Origin: Acutalibacter muris
GTDB lineage: Bacteria > Bacillota > Clostridia > Oscillospirales > Acutalibacteraceae
Direction: 5' to 3'
DNA length: 64,000 nt
Assembly: GCF_002201475.1 (NCBI RefSeq)
Contig: NZ_CP021422.1
Location: forward strand, 3,348,001 to 3,412,000
The notes beneath the pieces were generated by a model that saw only the letters and a list, made by a program, of their open reading frames with translations, was not told where the DNA came from and ran no database searches. A program made the position numbers and the translations under genes. The stretch's first letter is position 1. Each line of letters opens with the position of its first letter. This document shows, piece by piece, positions 48,467 through 57,110 of the stretch.

Positions 48467-48555
48467 GGAGACGTATCGAAGTGGTCATAACGGGACTGAC
48501 TCGAAATCAGTTGTACCTCACGGTACCGTGGGTTCGAATCCCACCGTCTCCGCCA
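48467..48555 (+). tRNA. tRNA-Ser (CGA)
   Basis: Acceptor GGAGACG/CGTCTCC with encoded GCCA end. Anticodon stem ACTGA/TCAGT holds loop CTCGAAA, anticodon CGA. Long variable arm (GTACC-TCAC-GGTAC) as in class II tRNA, T arm GTGGG-TTCGAAT-CCCAC. Confidence 0.95.
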
Positions 48556-48675
48556 AGGCGGTTTGTACCGCGCAAGAGAGCTGCAAGGGAAACTTTGCGG
48601 CTCTTTTCCATAAAGGCCGGAGATGGGGAACGAGTTTGTCTTTTGCACGACAAAAACGTAGAAGGAGGAGTCATT

Positions 48676-51207
48676 GTGAGAGGTTCAGAGTCCAGGCTGA
48701 TAGAATATATGGAAGGGGCTAAAAAGCGCTTTGTCATCCCGGTCTACCAGCGGAACTATAACTGGAAAACGGAAAACTGCAAACAGCTTTTTGACGATCT
48801 GCTGAAAATAATCCGGAATGGGAGAAAAAGCCACTTCTTTGGAAGCATCGTGTCGGTCTTTAACCCGGATGGCCGCTATACCGAGTTTCTTGTGATCGAT
48901 GGACAGCAGCGGCTTACTACCGTGTCCCTCCTGCTCCTTGCCATATACAACTTAACAAAGGAAGGCGTGATCATTCCGGCCACACCCTCTTTGACCCAAG
49001 AAATCTATGAGGGGTACCTTGTGGACAAGTTCCAGCCGGAGGAGACGCGCATCAAGCTCAAGCCTGTCAAGAATGACCAGCGCGCGCTGGGAAAGCTGTT
49101 TGAGGACAAAAAGGAGCACATAAAGGATTCCAACCTGACAGCAAACTACAGCTATTTCTATGACCGCATCCAGAAACAGGAGATTACCATCGACGAGCTT
49201 TTTGACGCAATTTGCAGGCTGGAGGTCATTGATATCCGGCTGAACAACGAGGATAACCCCCAGTTCATTTTTGAAAGCCTCAACTCTACTGGCCTTGATC
49301 TAAGCGAGGGCGACAAGATTCGCAACTTTGTCCTGATTGGTCTACCTTCAAAGGAACAGGAAGTCTATTATGAAAAGTATTGGAACCGCATTGAGGAGTG
49401 CACAGGCTATGATGCCAGCTCTTTCATTCGAGACTATCTCAGCTTAAAGCAGCAGTCCATTCCCTCACAGAAGCGCGTCTATGTGAATTTCAAAGAGTAT
49501 GTGGAGCTGGGTAAAATGGAAACAGAACCTTTACTCAGAGAGCTTCTCGGGTATGCCCAGCGGTATCAGGTTCTGCTGAAAGGCGGCACCGTAAGCAAAG
49601 CTTTGAATGCTTGTATCAGCCGTCTGAATCGTTTGGAAACAACGGTCACCCGGCCGTTTTTCTTGGAAGTCTTGCGTCTGCACGATGAGGGTACTCTGAG
49701 TATTTCAGAAGTCACGGAGATTTTTCTGATTGCCGAAAATTACCTGTTCCGCCGGAACATCTGCGATTTGCCCACCAACGCCCTGAACAAGATTTTCCTT
49801 ATGCTGCACCGGGAGATCACCCGCTATGACGGCACGGAAAAGGATTATGTGGATAAATTCAAATACGCGCTTCTCTCAAAAAAGGAAAGGGCGCGTTTCC
49901 CGGATGACGAAGAATTCGGCGCAAGCTTTACGGAGCGCCAGGTCTACCAGATGACCAACAAAAACAAGGTTTACATTCTGGAGCGCCTGGAAAACTATGG
50001 CACGCTGGAAGACAAGGACATTTATGCCCACTGCGACGATGGAACGTATTCCATCGAACACATCATGCCCCAGCATCTCACACCCGCGTGGATCAGGGAG
50101 CTTGGCGAGGACTATGAACAGATACACGAGCAGTGGCTGCATAGAATCGCCAACTTAACGCTGACCGCCTATAACTCTGCCTACAGCAACAGCTCCTTCC
50201 TTGAAAAGAAGAGCATGAAGAATGGTTTTGATGACAGCGGCCTTCGGATGAATACATATATCAGCAAAAAAGAGAAATGGACCCTGACAGAGTTAGAGGA
50301 CCGCAGTCAGTATCTGCGCGGGCGGGCCATTGAGATCTGGGCGGCGCCTGTTACCACTTTCAAGCCGCAGGAAAAGCAAATGGACACCTATACTTTGGAT
50401 GATGACGAGAATTTGAGCGGCCGGACGATTATCCGGTTCCGCTACAAAAACGCCGAACAGCCGGTGACCAGTTGGGTGGAGATGTTCCAGAAGGTGTTTC
50501 AGATCTTGTATGCAGAGGACAAGTCCGTCATAACACGGCTGGCAGTATCCTCCGATGAAAACATCGGCTACCACTTTTCCATAGGCCCCCATGAACTGCT
50601 TAAATCGGTGGAGATCGGCGATGGGATTTATGTGTTGACAAATACAAGCACACAAAGCAAGCTTTCTGTCCTGAACCGTGTATTCAAGTTATATGACGCC
50701 GACCCTTCAGACCTTGTGTTCTATCTCCGGGATGAAAGCGAGGCCCTGGAGGATGAGAATGGCCCACGTTATGCTCTGAGGAGGCAGTATTGGGCATACG
50801 CGCTGCCGATTATTAAAGAGGCCCACGGAGAAAACGGCCCTTTCAGCAATGTCAATCCGTCCAGCATGAACTGGGTAAATGGGTTCTTTGGTGTTAATGG
50901 TTTTAATTTGTGCTGTGTTGCGAACTATGACTCTGCCCGGGTGGAGGTTTATCTTGGTCACGCAGACCGGGACGTTAACAAACAGACATTTGACGCGCTG
51001 ATAAAACACAAGGGAGAGATTGAGTCTGCGCTTGGGATAGCCCTCCAATGGAGCCGTGGCGACGATATCAAGTCGTCAAAAGTGTACTATATGCTGAACA
51101 ATGTAAGTATAGAGCATGAGGTGGATTGGCTGCAGATGGCTCGCTTTCACGCGGAATGGAGCAAGAAATTCTATGATGTTATCGTGCCATACCTATTGCG
51201 CACCTGA
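48676..51207 (+). CDS. GmrSD-type (DUF262 + DUF1524) type IV restriction enzyme
   Basis: 843 residues from GTG at 48676, after GAAGGAGGAG; the frame opens earlier, inside the tRNA, but no start there has a ribosome site. N-terminal DUF262/ParB-like: KRFVIPVYQRNYNW and DGQQRLTTVSLLLLAIYN (DGQQR at 75-79). Middle DUF1524 HNH-type nuclease: YSIEHIMPQHLTPAW (His462) and HRIANLTLTAYNSAYSNSSF. The last 200 residues resemble DUF4268 (YWAYALPIIKEAHGENGPFS). Single-chain GmrSD enzymes cut modified (for example glucosylated hydroxymethylcytosine) phage DNA using NTP. Placed directly behind tRNA-Ser, a common integration site. Confidence 0.85.
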   Translation: MRGSESRLIEYMEGAKKRFVIPVYQRNYNWKTENCKQLFDDLLKIIRNGRKSHFFGSIVSVFNPDGRYTEFLVIDGQQRLTTVSLLLLAIYNLTKEGVIIPATPSLTQEIYEGYLVDKFQPEETRIKLKPVKNDQRALGKLFEDKKEHIKDSNLTANYSYFYDRIQKQEITIDELFDAICRLEVIDIRLNNEDNPQFIFESLNSTGLDLSEGDKIRNFVLIGLPSKEQEVYYEKYWNRIEECTGYDASSFIRDYLSLKQQSIPSQKRVYVNFKEYVELGKMETEPLLRELLGYAQRYQVLLKGGTVSKALNACISRLNRLETTVTRPFFLEVLRLHDEGTLSISEVTEIFLIAENYLFRRNICDLPTNALNKIFLMLHREITRYDGTEKDYVDKFKYALLSKKERARFPDDEEFGASFTERQVYQMTNKNKVYILERLENYGTLEDKDIYAHCDDGTYSIEHIMPQHLTPAWIRELGEDYEQIHEQWLHRIANLTLTAYNSAYSNSSFLEKKSMKNGFDDSGLRMNTYISKKEKWTLTELEDRSQYLRGRAIEIWAAPVTTFKPQEKQMDTYTLDDDENLSGRTIIRFRYKNAEQPVTSWVEMFQKVFQILYAEDKSVITRLAVSSDENIGYHFSIGPHELLKSVEIGDGIYVLTNTSTQSKLSVLNRVFKLYDADPSDLVFYLRDESEALEDENGPRYALRRQYWAYALPIIKEAHGENGPFSNVNPSSMNWVNGFFGVNGFNLCCVANYDSARVEVYLGHADRDVNKQTFDALIKHKGEIESALGIALQWSRGDDIKSSKVYYMLNNVSIEHEVDWLQMARFHAEWSKKFYDVIVPYLLRT

Positions 51208-51748: not shown

Positions 51749-51928
51749 TTACCCCTCGCTCTTATTATCAAAAATACCCGTGATAATATCTGCGCTGGCC
51801 TGTTTGCTGGCCTTGTCCAGATGGGCGTAAATGTTAGCCGTAGTGCTGATGTCACTATGCCCAAGGAAGTTGGAAACATTGATAAGTGGTACATCGTGGC
51901 TAATGAGTATACTAGCCATTGTGTGCCG
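51749..51928 (-). pseudogene. C-terminal stump of a tyrosine recombinase (integrase)
   Basis: Reads RHTMASILISHDVPLINVSN then FLGHSDISTTANIYAHLDKA SKQ to a TAA at 51749: the catalytic Arg-His box, LGH and the Tyr nucleophile in NIYAHL. A TAA lies just before the Arg codon, so no start and no N-terminal domains remain. The element that uses it can no longer excise by itself. Confidence 0.8.
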
Positions 51929-52183
51929 TTACGGTATAATAACGACAAACGGAAAAAGCCTTGATTTTCAAGGGGTTTGAGCGTTTGCCGTCATTTATTC
52001 AATTCCTTTTCCAAGTTGAAATCTGACGAGAAAAATATCGAAAAAAGGAGGCTGTTTCATTAACGACAAAATTTAATAGCGCCAGCGGTCCGGTGTATTG
52101 CCTGGCCGCTGATTGCCGTGGGCGTTTTACTTTTATAGGTGGGCGCCCTTTTTAGTACCCATTTTCAAGAGAAGGAGATTCAC
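51929..52183. other. Non-coding region of the integrative element
   Basis: Contains a hairpin-like CCTTGATTTTCAAGG (51959-51973), an AAAAAAGGAGG ribosome-site-like motif (52043) without a following gene, and GCCAGCGGTCC/GGCCGCTG arms. No gene recognised. Confidence 0.4.
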
Positions 52184-52225
52184 ATGGAATTAAACGAAAT
52201 GGAAAAACGGCTGACGAGTGCTTAA
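52184..52225 (+). pseudogene. Truncated 5' copy of the conjugative-element gene at 55849
   Basis: ATG with GAAGGAGATTCAC reads MELNEMEKRL, identical to the first ten codons at 55849, then TSA and stop. The leader (ACCCATTTTCAA ... GGAGAT.CACATGG) is also shared. This marks the left edge of the methylase/ATPase insertion. Confidence 0.75.
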
Positions 52226-52369
52226 ATAACATAGAATTGTAGTTTTCAAAACACCTAAGAGAAAAATCTCTGGGGCATTTTGTAATAATACGAGAATCTT
52301 ATTGCGTTCATGGACTCCGGTATGTTATAATAAACTATTAAACAGACTGGCAGAAAGGAGGAGATTAAC

Positions 52370-53530
52370 ATTAACATTGTAGATTTATTTTGTGGTTGTG
52401 GCGGAATGTCATTGGGTTTCCAAAGAGCAGGATTTGACATTTTGGCGGGATTTGAGCATTGGGATGTTGCTATCTCTTGCTATAAGAAAAATTTCACACA
52501 TCCGATTGAAGATGTTGACCTCTCAGATGTAAACCTTTCCGTCCAGACCATTATAAAATATAATCCTGATATTATAATAGGGGGACCGCCTTGTCAAGAC
52601 TTTTCTGGAGCAGGAAATAGAGTTGAAGGCGATCGTGCAGATTTAACTGTTTCATATGCAAAAATAATAAAGGCAATCTCTCCAAAATATTTTGTAATGG
52701 AAAATGTAGAGCGTGCAGCTAGTAGTGAGGCCTATAAAAAAGCCAGAGTTATTTTTAAAGAAGCTGGATATGGGCTAACAGAAAAAGTTCTTGATGCTAG
52801 TTTTTGTGGTGTTCCTCAGAAAAGGAAACGATTTTTTTGTATTGGATTTAAGAATGGGCAAGACAGTTTTTTAGATGGTTTATTATCAACAAATCAGTCT
52901 ATTTTCCCTTTAACAGTAAGAGAATACTTTCGACAGGAAAATTACAATTTGTCAATGGAATATTACTATCGACACCCTCGTTCATACAAACGACGTGGTA
53001 TATTTTCTGTTGACGAGCCCTCTCCTACAATACGAGGTGTTAACCGTCCTAAACCAGGAAACTATAAAAAGCATAGTGGAGATGTAATTGATCCCGATGG
53101 AATACGTAACTTATCTCGCCTAGAGCGATCCCTTATACAAACCTTTCCGCCTAATTTTATTTGGGATGATTCATCTGCTTCAACTGAACAAATGATTGGA
53201 AATGCGGTTCCAGTCAAATTGGCTAATTATGTAGCAACTTGTTTAATGCGCTTTATTAAAGGAGATACCGATTTACACAACCTGCGCTTCATTGATTGGT
53301 TGAAGAACGAAAAAAAACTTTCTGCGGAAGTAGCAGGAGATACTCTTTCAAGAATAGGTCGTGCAAAAAGGATTTCGGAATTCGGTACAGATGATTGTGA
53401 ATATTATTTAAAAAAATTAAGTAAGGAATCTATGTTTGAAGATATTGTTCCGTCTGTACGTGCTCAAATTCGACGTGCAATACGACTTTATTTTGAATAT
53501 ATTTCTGAACATAGGGAGGTAGAGCCATGA
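52370..53530 (+). CDS. DNA (cytosine-5-)-methyltransferase, probable AUU start
   Basis: 386 residues if ATT at 52370 initiates: NIVDLFCGCGGMSLGFQRAG (motif I) directly follows, and AAAGGAGG lies 8 bases upstream. There is no ATG, GTG or TTG in frame between the TAA at 52331 and motif I; the first ATG (52406) would delete motif I. Further motifs: GGPPCQDFSGAG (catalytic Cys75), MENVERA, QKRKRFF and GNAVPVKLA. The target-recognition region is short, with a 90-residue C-terminal extension. A promoter is visible (TTGCGT at 52302, TATAAT at 52326). Stop overlaps the next start (ATGA). AT-rich, unlike the flanks: recently acquired. Confidence 0.85.
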   Translation: MNIVDLFCGCGGMSLGFQRAGFDILAGFEHWDVAISCYKKNFTHPIEDVDLSDVNLSVQTIIKYNPDIIIGGPPCQDFSGAGNRVEGDRADLTVSYAKIIKAISPKYFVMENVERAASSEAYKKARVIFKEAGYGLTEKVLDASFCGVPQKRKRFFCIGFKNGQDSFLDGLLSTNQSIFPLTVREYFRQENYNLSMEYYYRHPRSYKRRGIFSVDEPSPTIRGVNRPKPGNYKKHSGDVIDPDGIRNLSRLERSLIQTFPPNFIWDDSSASTEQMIGNAVPVKLANYVATCLMRFIKGDTDLHNLRFIDWLKNEKKLSAEVAGDTLSRIGRAKRISEFGTDDCEYYLKKLSKESMFEDIVPSVRAQIRRAIRLYFEYISEHREVEP

Positions 53531-55500
53531 ATCAACCCAAATTTCAAATGTCTATAAATTTACAGGTATTAAATCATCTGGGATTAAATCTCTATAGTAA
53601 TACTTCTGCAGTATTATCTGAAGTGGTTGCAAACGCCTGGGATGCAGATGCTAAAGAAGTGTTAATAGAAATTAATGGCGATAGTATATCCATTACTGAC
53701 AATGGTATTGGGATGAACCTATCCGATATAAATAATAAATATTTGACTGTAGGCTATCAGAAACGTAGCGAAAGTGGTCTGTCACCAATACTTCATAGAC
53801 CAGTAATGGGAAGAAAAGGAATTGGAAAACTATCTCTTTTCTCTATTGCAAATGTTGTTGAGGTTTACTCTAAAAAAGATGGAGAAATTAACGGTTTTAA
53901 AATTGATGCAAATTCTCTGAAGGAGGCAATTAAAACCAACGATACATACCTTCCTACAGAGTTATCTCCTGATAATATAACTTTTTGTGGGAACGGTACA
54001 AAAATTATTTTAAATGATCTTAAGAAAAAGCGAACAGCTGCTTTGGCGACGCATTTAAGGCAGCGTTTAGCCCGCAGATTTGCAATTATTGGTGCAAAGA
54101 ATAATTTTAAAGTATCAATAAATGGTGATGAAATAGTCATATCTGATAGAAATTATCTCTCCAAAGCACAATGTGTATGGATGTTTCTTCCAGAGGATAA
54201 GCCTGATGAATTCAAAAAAGATTTGGAGAGTCAAACCAAAGCAAATAAAATTAAACTTATAAAGGAACTGCCCTCTACGATAACGGTTGGTGAAGTTTCT
54301 TATCACATTACAGGATGGATTGCTACTTGCTCAGAACCAAAGGAACTAGATGATGACGAAAATTTAAATCGTATTGTAATTATGGTTCGTGGGAAAATGG
54401 CAAAAGAAGATATTTTTTCTGAAATTGGAACAACTGCCCTCTATTCAAAATATGTTTTTGGAGAATTATCTGCGGATTTTTTGGATTTAGACGATGAGGC
54501 AGATATAACTACAAGTAGCAGGCAGGATTTCTTTGAAGACGATGAACGTTATATCGCTTTAAAAGAATTTGTTAGAAAGAGCCTTACATCAGTTCGAACT
54601 GATTGGGAAGAGACCAGAAGCACTAATGGAGTCGACGAAGCGTGCAAATACGTGGTTGTAAGCGATTGGTATAACGAGTTGAAAGGAGATGATAAAAGAT
54701 CTGCAAAAAAATTATTCGGTAAAATCAATCAGTTAACTGTTGAAAAAGAGGAGAAAAAAGAACTATTCAAGCATGGAGTTTTGGCTTTTGAATCATTTAA
54801 ATTAAAAAACGAATTAAGTCAACTTGAAAAAATTTCCGCCGAAAATATTGCGGCATTTATAGAAGTTGCGGGACGGCTTGATGATATTGAAGCAACTATG
54901 TATTATCAAATTGTGCAAGAGCGTCTTGCTGTTATTAGGAAAATGCAAGATGTTGTATCGGATGGTAGCCTTGAAAAAGTCATACAAGACCATTTAAGCA
55001 AAAATTTGTGGCTACTTGATCCCTCATGGGATAGAGGAACTGAAGCTCCAATCGTAGAACAAGCGTTTAAAACACAATTTGAAACCATAGACGCAAGTCT
55101 CACTCAAGAAGAATTAGATGCCCGCCTTGATATTCGATATAAAAAAGCATCTAATAAGCATTTGATAATTGAATTAAAAAAAGGAGATCGAACGGTAAAA
55201 TCACAAGAAATAACGGCTCAAGTATATAAATATTTTTCTGCCACAAAAAAAGTAATGGCTACCTTAGATCAGCCTGAACCATTTGAAATTATTGTCCTCT
55301 TAGGGAATCACCTAGACGGAAAACATTATGATGAAGATGTATATCAAGCTACTAAAGAAGCCTTAAAAGCTTACCATTGTAGGATTATGTATTATGATGA
55401 ACTTTTAAGAAATGCACAAAACTTATATAGTGATTTCTTAGAGCAAAACAAAAATCTATCAACATTGAGTGACATTATTAACGAATTAGAGCTTGGTTAA
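53527..55500 (+). CDS. MORC/MutL-like GHKL ATPase with C-terminal nuclease-like domain
   Basis: 657 residues. GHKL motifs: SEVVANAWDADAKEVLIEI (N box), ISITDNGIGMNLSDI (G1) and MGRKGIGKLSLFSIANVVEV (G2), then an S5-like region. The C-terminus carries a PD-(D/E)xK-like pattern: ARLDIRYKKASNKHLIIELK with Asp near 535 and ExK at 549-551, then QEITAQVYKYFSATKK. Restriction-modification-linked MORC-like ATPases joined to C5 methylases were described computationally by Iyer, Abhiman and Aravind (2008). Here the ATPase/nuclease is the predicted restriction partner of the methylase it overlaps by 4 bases. Activity is inferred. Confidence 0.8.
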   Translation: MNQPKFQMSINLQVLNHLGLNLYSNTSAVLSEVVANAWDADAKEVLIEINGDSISITDNGIGMNLSDINNKYLTVGYQKRSESGLSPILHRPVMGRKGIGKLSLFSIANVVEVYSKKDGEINGFKIDANSLKEAIKTNDTYLPTELSPDNITFCGNGTKIILNDLKKKRTAALATHLRQRLARRFAIIGAKNNFKVSINGDEIVISDRNYLSKAQCVWMFLPEDKPDEFKKDLESQTKANKIKLIKELPSTITVGEVSYHITGWIATCSEPKELDDDENLNRIVIMVRGKMAKEDIFSEIGTTALYSKYVFGELSADFLDLDDEADITTSSRQDFFEDDERYIALKEFVRKSLTSVRTDWEETRSTNGVDEACKYVVVSDWYNELKGDDKRSAKKLFGKINQLTVEKEEKKELFKHGVLAFESFKLKNELSQLEKISAENIAAFIEVAGRLDDIEATMYYQIVQERLAVIRKMQDVVSDGSLEKVIQDHLSKNLWLLDPSWDRGTEAPIVEQAFKTQFETIDASLTQEELDARLDIRYKKASNKHLIIELKKGDRTVKSQEITAQVYKYFSATKKVMATLDQPEPFEIIVLLGNHLDGKHYDEDVYQATKEALKAYHCRIMYYDELLRNAQNLYSDFLEQNKNLSTLSDIINELELG

Positions 55501-55694
55501 TATATGCTGTTTTGCGGAACAATCCAAGTTTTTTCACCTTGAAAGATTTTACCGTCTACTCGTTGAATAATAACACAATGCGGGAAAAACCTCGATTGTT
55601 CAATAATTACATATTTTGTTTGAGTATCTAATTTGGGTGGGCGCTCCCCCAAAATTGAATAGCCATACATACATTTAGTTTTATACTGTTTCAT
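55497..55694 (-). CDS. Small hypothetical protein at the end of the methylase cassette
   Basis: 65 residues from ATG at 55694 (CGAGAGG upstream): MKQYKTKCMYGYSILGERPP then KLDTQTKYVIIEQSRFFPHC. Its stop overlaps that of the ATPase gene by 4 bases. AT-rich like the cassette, so probably part of the same cargo. No domain recognised. Confidence 0.45.
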   Translation of the reverse strand: MKQYKTKCMYGYSILGERPPKLDTQTKYVIIEQSRFFPHCVIIQRVDGKIFQGEKTWIVPQNSIY

Positions 55695-55848
55695 AAACAA
55701 CCTCTCGATAAACTTATTATTGGACAGAAAAATCTCTGCTTACCTAAAATTCAAACCAATAAAAGAAATATTTATATATTCTTTTATGTGCCATAGGTTA
55801 ACCACCTATGGCATTTTTATACCCATTTTCAAAAGAAAGGAGATCCAC

Positions 55849-56370
55849 ATGGAATTAAACGAAATGGAAAAACGGCTGCTGTTTCAGGTTGAGGGAGACT
55901 ATCAATACAAAGTCCTGAACGAGCTCCACATGGCTGCCCGGTACACAAAGAACCCTGAACAGCGGAAGGCAGCGGAAAGTCTGATGGCAAAGCTGCGCGT
56001 CCTGACGGATGACGAGTGCATGGACATCGTGCGGGATATCCAGAAGAATTACCTCCTGCCCTACCCGCCCCGGACGATTGGGGAAAAGATTGCGGAGGCC
56101 AGGCAGCGATCCGGCGCGGAAAAATTGAAAGGGCATGACATCATGGCCCTGGAACGCTTTGCCCCAGAGGTACGGCACATGATCATCTTCAATGTGCTGT
56201 CTTATAATTCTCCTGTCGGCGATAAGGGCGATAGGATGCGCCTGTTCCTTACGGATGCCGGCTATCAGAAATTTTTAGACAGCCAGGAGCGGGGCGAAGT
56301 CAAACTGAAAAACCATGCGAAGGTCTCAGACGGGCATCTCCATTATGACCGCAGGGACCGCGTCTTGTAA
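55849..56370 (+). CDS. Conserved conjugative-element protein of unknown function
   Basis: 173 residues; ATG after AAAGGAGATCCAC. ELNEMEKRLLFQVEGDYQYK, LTDDECMDIVRDIQKNYLLP and VRHMIIFNVLSYNSPVGDKG; no catalytic motif. The same leader and first ten codons occur at 52184, so the AT-rich cassette inserted at this gene's start and left this copy whole. GC content returns to that of the island here. Confidence 0.65.
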   Translation: MELNEMEKRLLFQVEGDYQYKVLNELHMAARYTKNPEQRKAAESLMAKLRVLTDDECMDIVRDIQKNYLLPYPPRTIGEKIAEARQRSGAEKLKGHDIMALERFAPEVRHMIIFNVLSYNSPVGDKGDRMRLFLTDAGYQKFLDSQERGEVKLKNHAKVSDGHLHYDRRDRVL

Positions 56371-56399
56371 CAGGATAACCGGAGAAAGGAGGCTTTGAA

Positions 56400-57110
56400 A
56401 TGGCTGTATTCCGGGTAGAAAAAACAAAGGACTTCACAATCATGTGCAACCACCATCTGCGCAATACGGAACTGTCCTTAAAGGCAAAGGGGCTCCTCTC
56501 GCTCATGCTGTCGCTGCCGGAAGATTGGGATTATACCACAAAGGGGCTCGCCCATATCTGTAAGGACGGCGTGGATTCGATCACTACCGCCCTGGGTTGG
56601 TTTTGCCGCCATGTTCACGGTATCGCACGCTTTATGAAGAACAATCCTGATAAGGTGAGCAAGACGGCGTATGGCAAAGCAGATGTCATAGATAAAGAAT
56701 TTGATGCGGCTTGGCGAAAGAAGGTTGTGCAGTTTCAAGTGCCGATCTTTTCGCAGGGTACGAGTGGTGCGTGGGTTTTGAGGTTTGATGACGTGCTGGC
56801 TGACGCTCTGGAACTGGGGCCGCTGCGAAACAACAGCATTGACTTGCCGGACGATATTCTCAATCGAATGGAAGCACTCCGGCCTGAGAAGGTACCGGCT
56901 GAAGTTATCCGCACTTTAGTGGCATATTACATTGCAAATAAGCCGGAGGATTCTGAATGGGTCGTGCTGCCGGTCACAAACTTTGACGCATATTTTGGCA
57001 GTACCATGTTCAGTAGAAAGTGGCTGCCAGCTATTCCTGAGAGTATTATCATGCGGAAAAAGGAACGGTTGGGAGTTGCAAGATTTCGAGCGAGTCAATC
57101 TATTTTGTAA
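56400..57110 (+). CDS. Chimeric replication-initiator-type HTH protein
   Basis: 236 residues; ATG after AGGAGGCTTTGAA. The first ~60 residues (VFRVEKTKDFTIMCNHHLRN, LSLKAKGLLSLMLSLPEDWD, GLAHICKDGVDSI) are the winged-helix start of RepA-like proteins of integrative elements. From TTALGWFCRHVHGIARF on, the sequence differs from that family and looks like part of another protein (FDDVLADALELGPLRNNSID, VIRTLVAYYIANKPEDSEWV). A fusion by recombination near 56580 is likely. Confidence 0.5.
   Translation: MAVFRVEKTKDFTIMCNHHLRNTELSLKAKGLLSLMLSLPEDWDYTTKGLAHICKDGVDSITTALGWFCRHVHGIARFMKNNPDKVSKTAYGKADVIDKEFDAAWRKKVVQFQVPIFSQGTSGAWVLRFDDVLADALELGPLRNNSIDLPDDILNRMEALRPEKVPAEVIRTLVAYYIANKPEDSEWVVLPVTNFDAYFGSTMFSRKWLPAIPESIIMRKKERLGVARFRASQSIL

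Follow-up and report, generated by a model that had tools for sequence, protein, structure and literature searches.

How does a restriction system enter an unprotected host without killing it? The question is an old one, usually answered with controller proteins and promoter timing. It is raised here by a cassette of Acutalibacter muris, found in a 64,000-nucleotide (nt) stretch of a 3.80-Mb single-contig genome (G000:C1:3348001-3412000). This whole stretch is referred to as the window, and positions are window coordinates. The cassette spans approximately 3.6 kb (outer limits 52214..55813, no strand assigned) and contains genes for a C5-cytosine methyltransferase and a GHKL-ATPase/PD-(D/E)xK endonuclease, together with a small convergent gene. 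Its GC content is 34.7%, versus 53.4% for the whole window, with 42.1% in the left flank (51922-52213) and 51.6% in the right (55814-56594); the strikingly AT-rich block reported in the initial annotation, made by a model from the letters and open reading frames (ORFs), is thereby confirmed. The system is of a known restriction-modification kind and has two conserved features for which we found no description: a predicted AUU start and a convergent gene of 65 aa. Taken as a whole, we consider it probable that this is a BbrUII/HgiDII-type cassette carried as cargo, organized as an AUU-started, coupled operon and captured by leader recombination. If so, the old question would have an answer at the level of translation, a conserved AUU heading a coupled methyltransferase-endonuclease operon, testable by one codon change. 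Three findings go beyond the initial annotation: the AUU start, another copy in the same genome and what kind of left end the host element has.

The family of the endonuclease was computed from its sequence. The 657-aa protein (53527..55500, + strand) matched the NCBI equivalog NF050001, "BbrUII/HgiDII family restriction enzyme", with 774.2 bits over residues 6-654 (cut-off of 550), and Pfam placed HATPase_c_3 at its N-terminus. In an alignment of 15 members (the window cluster and 14 more, at 56-89% identity to it), all 15 shared invariant GHKL motifs (N36, D58-x-G60 and G95-K97-G98-G100) and an invariant C-terminal nuclease motif (E511, D535 and E549-L-K551). The methyltransferase stop and the endonuclease start overlap as ATGA at 53527-53530. 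The initial annotation had described a methyltransferase overlapping a GHKL ATPase with a C-terminal ExK domain and had looked to homologue alignments for the ExK motif: the overlap is present, and D...ExK occurs in every member. It had further invoked the 2008 prediction that methylase-linked MORC/MutL ATPases are restriction systems. This holds as to a restriction system and was too cautious as to kind, NF050001 naming a type II family. Consistent with this assignment, the best PADLOC match of the methyltransferase was a type II model. Judged from sequence, the pair makes up a complete type II restriction-modification system of the BbrUII/HgiDII kind. A search of viral contigs for the endonuclease returned none.

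The methyltransferase (52370..53530, + strand; PF00145, 3.2e-67) comprises 386 aa when read from the predicted AUU start at 52370-52372. Motif I (DLFCGCGG) is needed for S-adenosylmethionine binding in C5-cytosine methyltransferases. The protein contains what we take to be motifs I, IV, VI, VIII and X, the first of these only if translation starts ahead of the first ATG. In the window, an in-frame stop lies 17 codons upstream, and from there to motif I the frame contains neither ATG nor GTG nor TTG; its first ATG (52406) lies downstream of motif I. A Shine-Dalgarno sequence, AGGAGG (52356..52361, + strand), stands 8 nt ahead of the AUU. Conservation of the AUU position was computed in the five loci whose DNA spans the start (the window, the Lachnospiraceae genome C77, L007, L008 and L120); a further locus, L009, begins inside the methyltransferase and was left out of start-codon and left-flank scoring. 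ATT occupied the fourth codon before motif I (position −4) and the motif I stretch was conserved in 5/5 loci, a strong Shine-Dalgarno sequence preceded the ATT by 8 nt in the four loci measured, and in three of the five no canonical start stood anywhere from the upstream stop to motif I.

Database proteins pointed to the same position. The tally covered the best 120 of 7999 homologues. Among the 79 best-ranked (71-99% identity), motif I was missing from 60 models, 12 longer models had isoleucine at −4 and one started at −1. The following 41 were mostly below 68% identity; 27 of them had a methionine start exactly at −4, six started one residue earlier, five had no motif I, and longer models had isoleucine (two) or leucine (one) there. 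We predict that translation of the methyltransferase starts at AUU 52370, because motif I precedes the first ATG, the Shine-Dalgarno sequence is strong, distant homologues have their methionine at −4, and ATT is found there in all five loci. Such a start would, if real, explain the database models that lack the S-adenosylmethionine-binding motif: the motif is probably missing from the 60 mostly because gene callers miss the start.

A viral methyltransferase outgroup was also inspected (218 loci found, 80 fetched and 30 read, with motif I located in 26). ATG or TTG stood at the −4 codon in 15 of these 26. No canonical start was present in L172, and none closer than 45 codons in L171 and L182, so that 3/26 lacked a nearby start, yet they had no ATT in common. 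The motif I search had missed L107 (G533:C55), where a more distant pair, with an endonuclease of this family (759 bits), lies in a prophage-like stretch that has a terminase-like ORF nearby; the methyltransferase of that pair has an ordinary ATG start. Folding of the leader around the AUU was no better than that of shuffled sequences (z of 0.53). AUU starts are rare but known, as in infC and pcnB (PMC9410913) and in Staphylococcus aureus cvfC1, the first gene of its operon, which has a strong, extended Shine-Dalgarno sequence (PMC13009471). These genes resemble the methyltransferase in their start codon, but none is a restriction-modification gene. A literature search for AUU, ATT or other non-canonical starts joined with restriction-modification, judged partly by titles, found none.

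The third gene (55497..55694, − strand) encodes 65 aa and its stop overlaps that of the endonuclease in the window, L009 and L120. Homologues formed 24 clusters, all of at least 66% identity, and conservation of the gene was computed across the five cassette loci examined (the window, L007, L008, L009 and L120). In the ten pairwise comparisons among these, dN was 0.13-0.50 and dS was at least 1.27 or saturated. Because dN is well below dS, the ORF is taken to be a real protein gene, which upholds the small convergent gene of the initial annotation; no described family was found for it. Specifically, there was no credible match in Pfam, PADLOC or NCBIfam, nor in PHROGs (best E of 0.034) or among PDB sequences (best E of 0.91). 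The ORFs flanking the more distant prophage pair of G533 included no gene of this type. By these comparisons the 65-aa protein is a conserved third component of the cassette, and it would offer a small, clean target for genetics. We guess that its role is most likely that of a control or accessory factor.

The cassette lies between two copies of a leader. Regions 52149-52213 and 55814-55878 align at 94% identity when gaps are allowed and at 83% ungapped, and the longest exact repeat within 52000-56000 is 33 nt, whereas none of 200 dinucleotide shuffles gave one above 17 nt. Copy A (52157..52213, + strand) comprises the leader, ribosome-binding site and first ten codons; copy B (55821..55878, + strand) comprises the corresponding leader, ribosome-binding site and first codons of an intact 173-aa DUF5720 element gene (55849..56370, + strand; PF18987, 6e-44). 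The leader and first ten codons that the initial annotation had placed on both sides are thus confirmed. It had also proposed an insertion at the start of a conjugative-element gene. The cassette is indeed cargo in a conjugative-type element, but the DUF5720 gene is not interrupted: it retains its own leader and start, and the upstream copy is a stub only, a 13-codon ORF, MELNEMEKRLTSA (52184..52225, + strand), ahead of the cassette.

Comparison of loci, also computed, established the cassette as acquired cargo. A second copy lies in the same genome, 1.47 Mb away (C1:1924662-1929335), where 4674 bp are identical but for one change at 52621, silent, in methyltransferase codon 84. A third element in this genome (L024) has the same left end (95%) leading directly into the DUF5720 gene with no cassette, and this empty arrangement recurs in L052 (G049) and L117 (C77), giving three empty loci in three genomes. 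The initial annotation had called for a search for the uninterrupted gene and had considered that related strains might always carry the pair at this site; the empty loci show that they do not. Because related elements without the cassette were found at these three loci, the cassette is not a fixed part of the element. C77 also has an occupied-looking form, broken by other DNA and split over two contigs, of which the left end, copy A and the cassette start match at 98.8% and the remainder at 99.8%. If these pieces are one element, three loci are occupied (two in G000 and one in C77) and three are empty. In C77 (L118/L121), the foreign DNA lies between the methyltransferase promoter region and the Shine-Dalgarno sequence, with TATTAAACAGAC at both joints, and it may silence that cassette. 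The same cassette is found in other settings in L007, L008, L009 and L120, and its relatives occur in Lachnospiraceae and other Clostridia records.

Three alternatives to parts of this account were weighed. The endonuclease could be a stand-alone anti-phage system of the paraMORC3 or Shedu type, such as VcSduA, to which the methyltransferase is incidental. In the parts of the sources seen, paraMORC3 likewise combines a GHKL ATPase with a C-terminal E-D-ExK, its definition also including S5, and gene neighbourhoods tied its wider class to DNA methylases (Iyer, Abhiman and Aravind 2008, PMC2292703); those parts mention no AUU start, small third gene or insertion mode. VcSduA has the same N-terminal GHKL ATPase and C-terminal PD-(D/E)xK, here GHKL and DUF4263, both required for its defence, and shields cells from phage (PMC12137116, in the parts seen, which describe no methyltransferase partner). 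The Shedu nuclease domain SduA_C did match seven of the 15 family members at E up to 0.1; on the window endonuclease it scored 16.7 bits, below its gathering score of 27, and the best models were type II restriction enzymes in all 15 members. The methyltransferase adjoins the endonuclease in the cassette loci read and, in the window, overlaps it. The ParaMORC3 of Escherichia phage PhiR44_1 (PV340563), 36% identical to the endonuclease over 98% of its length, is itself paired with an adjacent cytosine methylase (Dcm), although those genes are convergent, not overlapping, and are phage-borne, between portal-side and replication genes. We regard a stand-alone system as very unlikely. HgiDII/BbrUII remain the closest in kind, sharing the endonuclease family over the curated cut-off and a C5-cytosine methyltransferase partner; the predicted AUU and the 65-aa gene are features of the present clade, the HgiDII/BbrUII loci themselves lying outside the comparison. 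Slightly less probable again is a methyltransferase start at the internal ATG 52406 (MSLGF) with the 5' frame untranslated. This is the first canonical start in the frame, and most of the 60 models without motif I begin at its methionine or close by. It would, however, delete motif I, whose stretch is conserved in five loci behind the Shine-Dalgarno spacing described above, and many distant homologues begin at the ATT position.

Several observations weigh against the account that we prefer, a mobile BbrUII/HgiDII-type cassette with an AUU-started operon. AUU does not extend to the whole clade, since six of the 79 best-ranked homologues start with methionine at −4, and some full-length database models begin in the Shine-Dalgarno region, allowing another start in members known from protein alone. 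An in-frame ATG precedes motif I in two of the five loci, by 17 codons in C77 and 20 in L120; by our reading, the former would lie within the foreign DNA at the joint and the latter would overlap a promoter-like stretch. A consensus promoter scan listed 12 sites, versus 14.3 in shuffles, and the promoter proposed below was not among them. M.HgiDII methylates GTCGAC (PMC5867850), and in 355 kb this site was observed 15 times where 39.3 would be expected, which ranks it ninth of 64 palindromes. The whole genome has 179 occurrences, or 47 per Mb, within the range of 12-145 per Mb in eight congeners. GTCGAC avoidance was therefore rejected as a sign of activity, having failed the genus control despite the 355-kb deficit, and long-term activity at this site is not supported. 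Finally, leader recombination cannot be told apart from a duplication that later diverged slightly. The initial annotation had suggested a single event duplicating about 60 bp, and on this alternative the 3.6-kb block would be a mobile element or end-joining insertion with a target duplication of ~57 bp. Copies A and B are indeed close: they differ at 3/57 aligned core positions in the window, a 1-nt gap included, and at two in C77, whereas either is 6-8 differences from the empty leaders of L117 and L024 and 11-13 from that of L052. The duplication is nevertheless imperfect, and no transposase or recombinase was recognized in 52214-55813, none of the three recognized genes being one; the idea of a hidden transposon was dropped on this ground. 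In addition, the cassette of L008 sits in an L117-type element, again within the leader, with a different, shorter left joint, while such a leader is absent from both sides of the cassette in L120 and, in L009, from the right, the sole side available. A single duplicating insertion is thus unproved; we judge it unlikely, though less so than the other two alternatives. Leader recombination is favoured because no recombinase was recognized in the block. The cassette would have arrived by recombination between the integrative and conjugative element (ICE) leaders of two elements, leaving the recipient leader and ten codons as a stub.

The arrangement of the genes suggests how the operon might work. 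A possible promoter (52302..52331, + strand), read by eye and similar in L008, combines a weak −35, TTGCGT, with an extended −10, TGTTATAAT (TATAAT at 52326-52331). The restriction operon probably ends, and the cassette has its likely right boundary, at a terminator hairpin (55788..55818, + strand) from a scan that found four terminator-like sites versus 2.2 expected. This hairpin is also present in L006, L007, L009 and L120 and is degenerate in L008; its T-run merges into the leader "TTTTTATACCC". Rfam searches in or near the cassette gave no credible element, with two weak microRNA matches only. A single transcript would run from just past the −10 box (52331) to this hairpin. Since the likely terminator is beyond the 65-aa gene, the transcript should be antisense to it, and the 65-aa protein, encoded on the opposite strand in the 3' untranslated region of the operon, might be a control or accessory factor. 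The methyltransferase would be translated from the weak AUU, directed by the strong Shine-Dalgarno sequence, and the endonuclease by re-initiation at the overlapping ATGA. Because the endonuclease ATG overlaps the methyltransferase stop, the weak AUU is inferred to limit both enzymes, one weak start giving a low, balanced dose. By analogy with the family, the methyltransferase would protect host DNA, and the GHKL ATPase would dimerize on DNA and allow the C-terminal nuclease to cut DNA that is unmodified. Initiation factor 3 (IF3) discriminates against AUU, as known for infC. More speculatively, and with a probability that we put well short of even, these cassettes could form a clade of mobile restriction-modification operons in which the conserved AUU sets the dose, the enzymes track IF3 and ribosome state, expression starts gently in a naive host and the 65-aa protein adds a further level of control.

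The host is a conjugative element, as judged from its empty C77 relative, which carries TraG/VirD4 and TrbL genes. After the DUF5720 gene, the window retains the start of an HTH_36/DUF6017-type gene (56400..56594, + strand; domain search, DUF6017 being named from relatives). Homology to the second copy ends at 56594, only the first 4.7 kb being in common. The empty C77 element continues through HTH_36/DUF6017, DUF3991-Toprim, TraG/VirD4, TrbL (TrbL_2) and Maff2. The host in the window is a decayed conjugative element, and the cassette lies close to its left end. Beyond 56594, to 58400, lie flavodoxin-like and IstB/DnaC-like gene fragments in a decayed mosaic.

The left end of the element (51922..52183, + strand, up to the first leader) starts within a base or two of the same position in L022, L024, L052 and L121. 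Left-end matches were found in 12 genomes, and flanks were read in the five where the match lay at most 18 bases from the end (G000, G049, G048, G279 and G345); matches in the other seven were 21-28 bases long. In 8/8 flanks read (window 51922, L022, L024, L052, L121, L109, L110 and L108), the left end adjoined the C-terminal part of a tyrosine integrase gene, a different one each time; the cut lay at the catalytic R-H-T codons throughout, with the first residue R, G or lost, and a stop codon stood just before the piece in seven. It looks as though the element inserts itself into integrase genes of other elements, at their active-site codons. A literature search for insertion into integrase active-site codons found nothing; attachment sites inside an element's own integrase gene (Mx8) are mentioned in PMC4701971. 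One query for the integrase N-terminal halves did not find them beside the own-genome copies, and the left end was not found in plasmids or, as one exact 30-base pattern, in viral contigs.

Other loci touch on these ends. In L138 (G049:C16:24638-24937), an integrase N-terminal half ends in ...DLRH and is followed by foreign DNA with a large serine recombinase close by, which we read as a candidate right end of such an element. In L158 and L159 (G000:C1:2352085 and 2433929), we read integrase C-terminal pieces starting from G-H-T beside ParA-like frames, and the integrase target may be used by more than one element type. By our reading, the C77-type empty element seemingly starts at ~1150-1200 of L117 in a Fic-like gene, at the HPFIDGN motif codons, and the L008 element starts within an insertion sequence (IS) transposase-like frame. 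Finally, a 908-aa GmrSD-type ORF (48481-51207; GmrSD_N, GmrSD_C and DUF4268) lies beside a tRNA-Ser gene (48467-48555), outside the element end at 51922.

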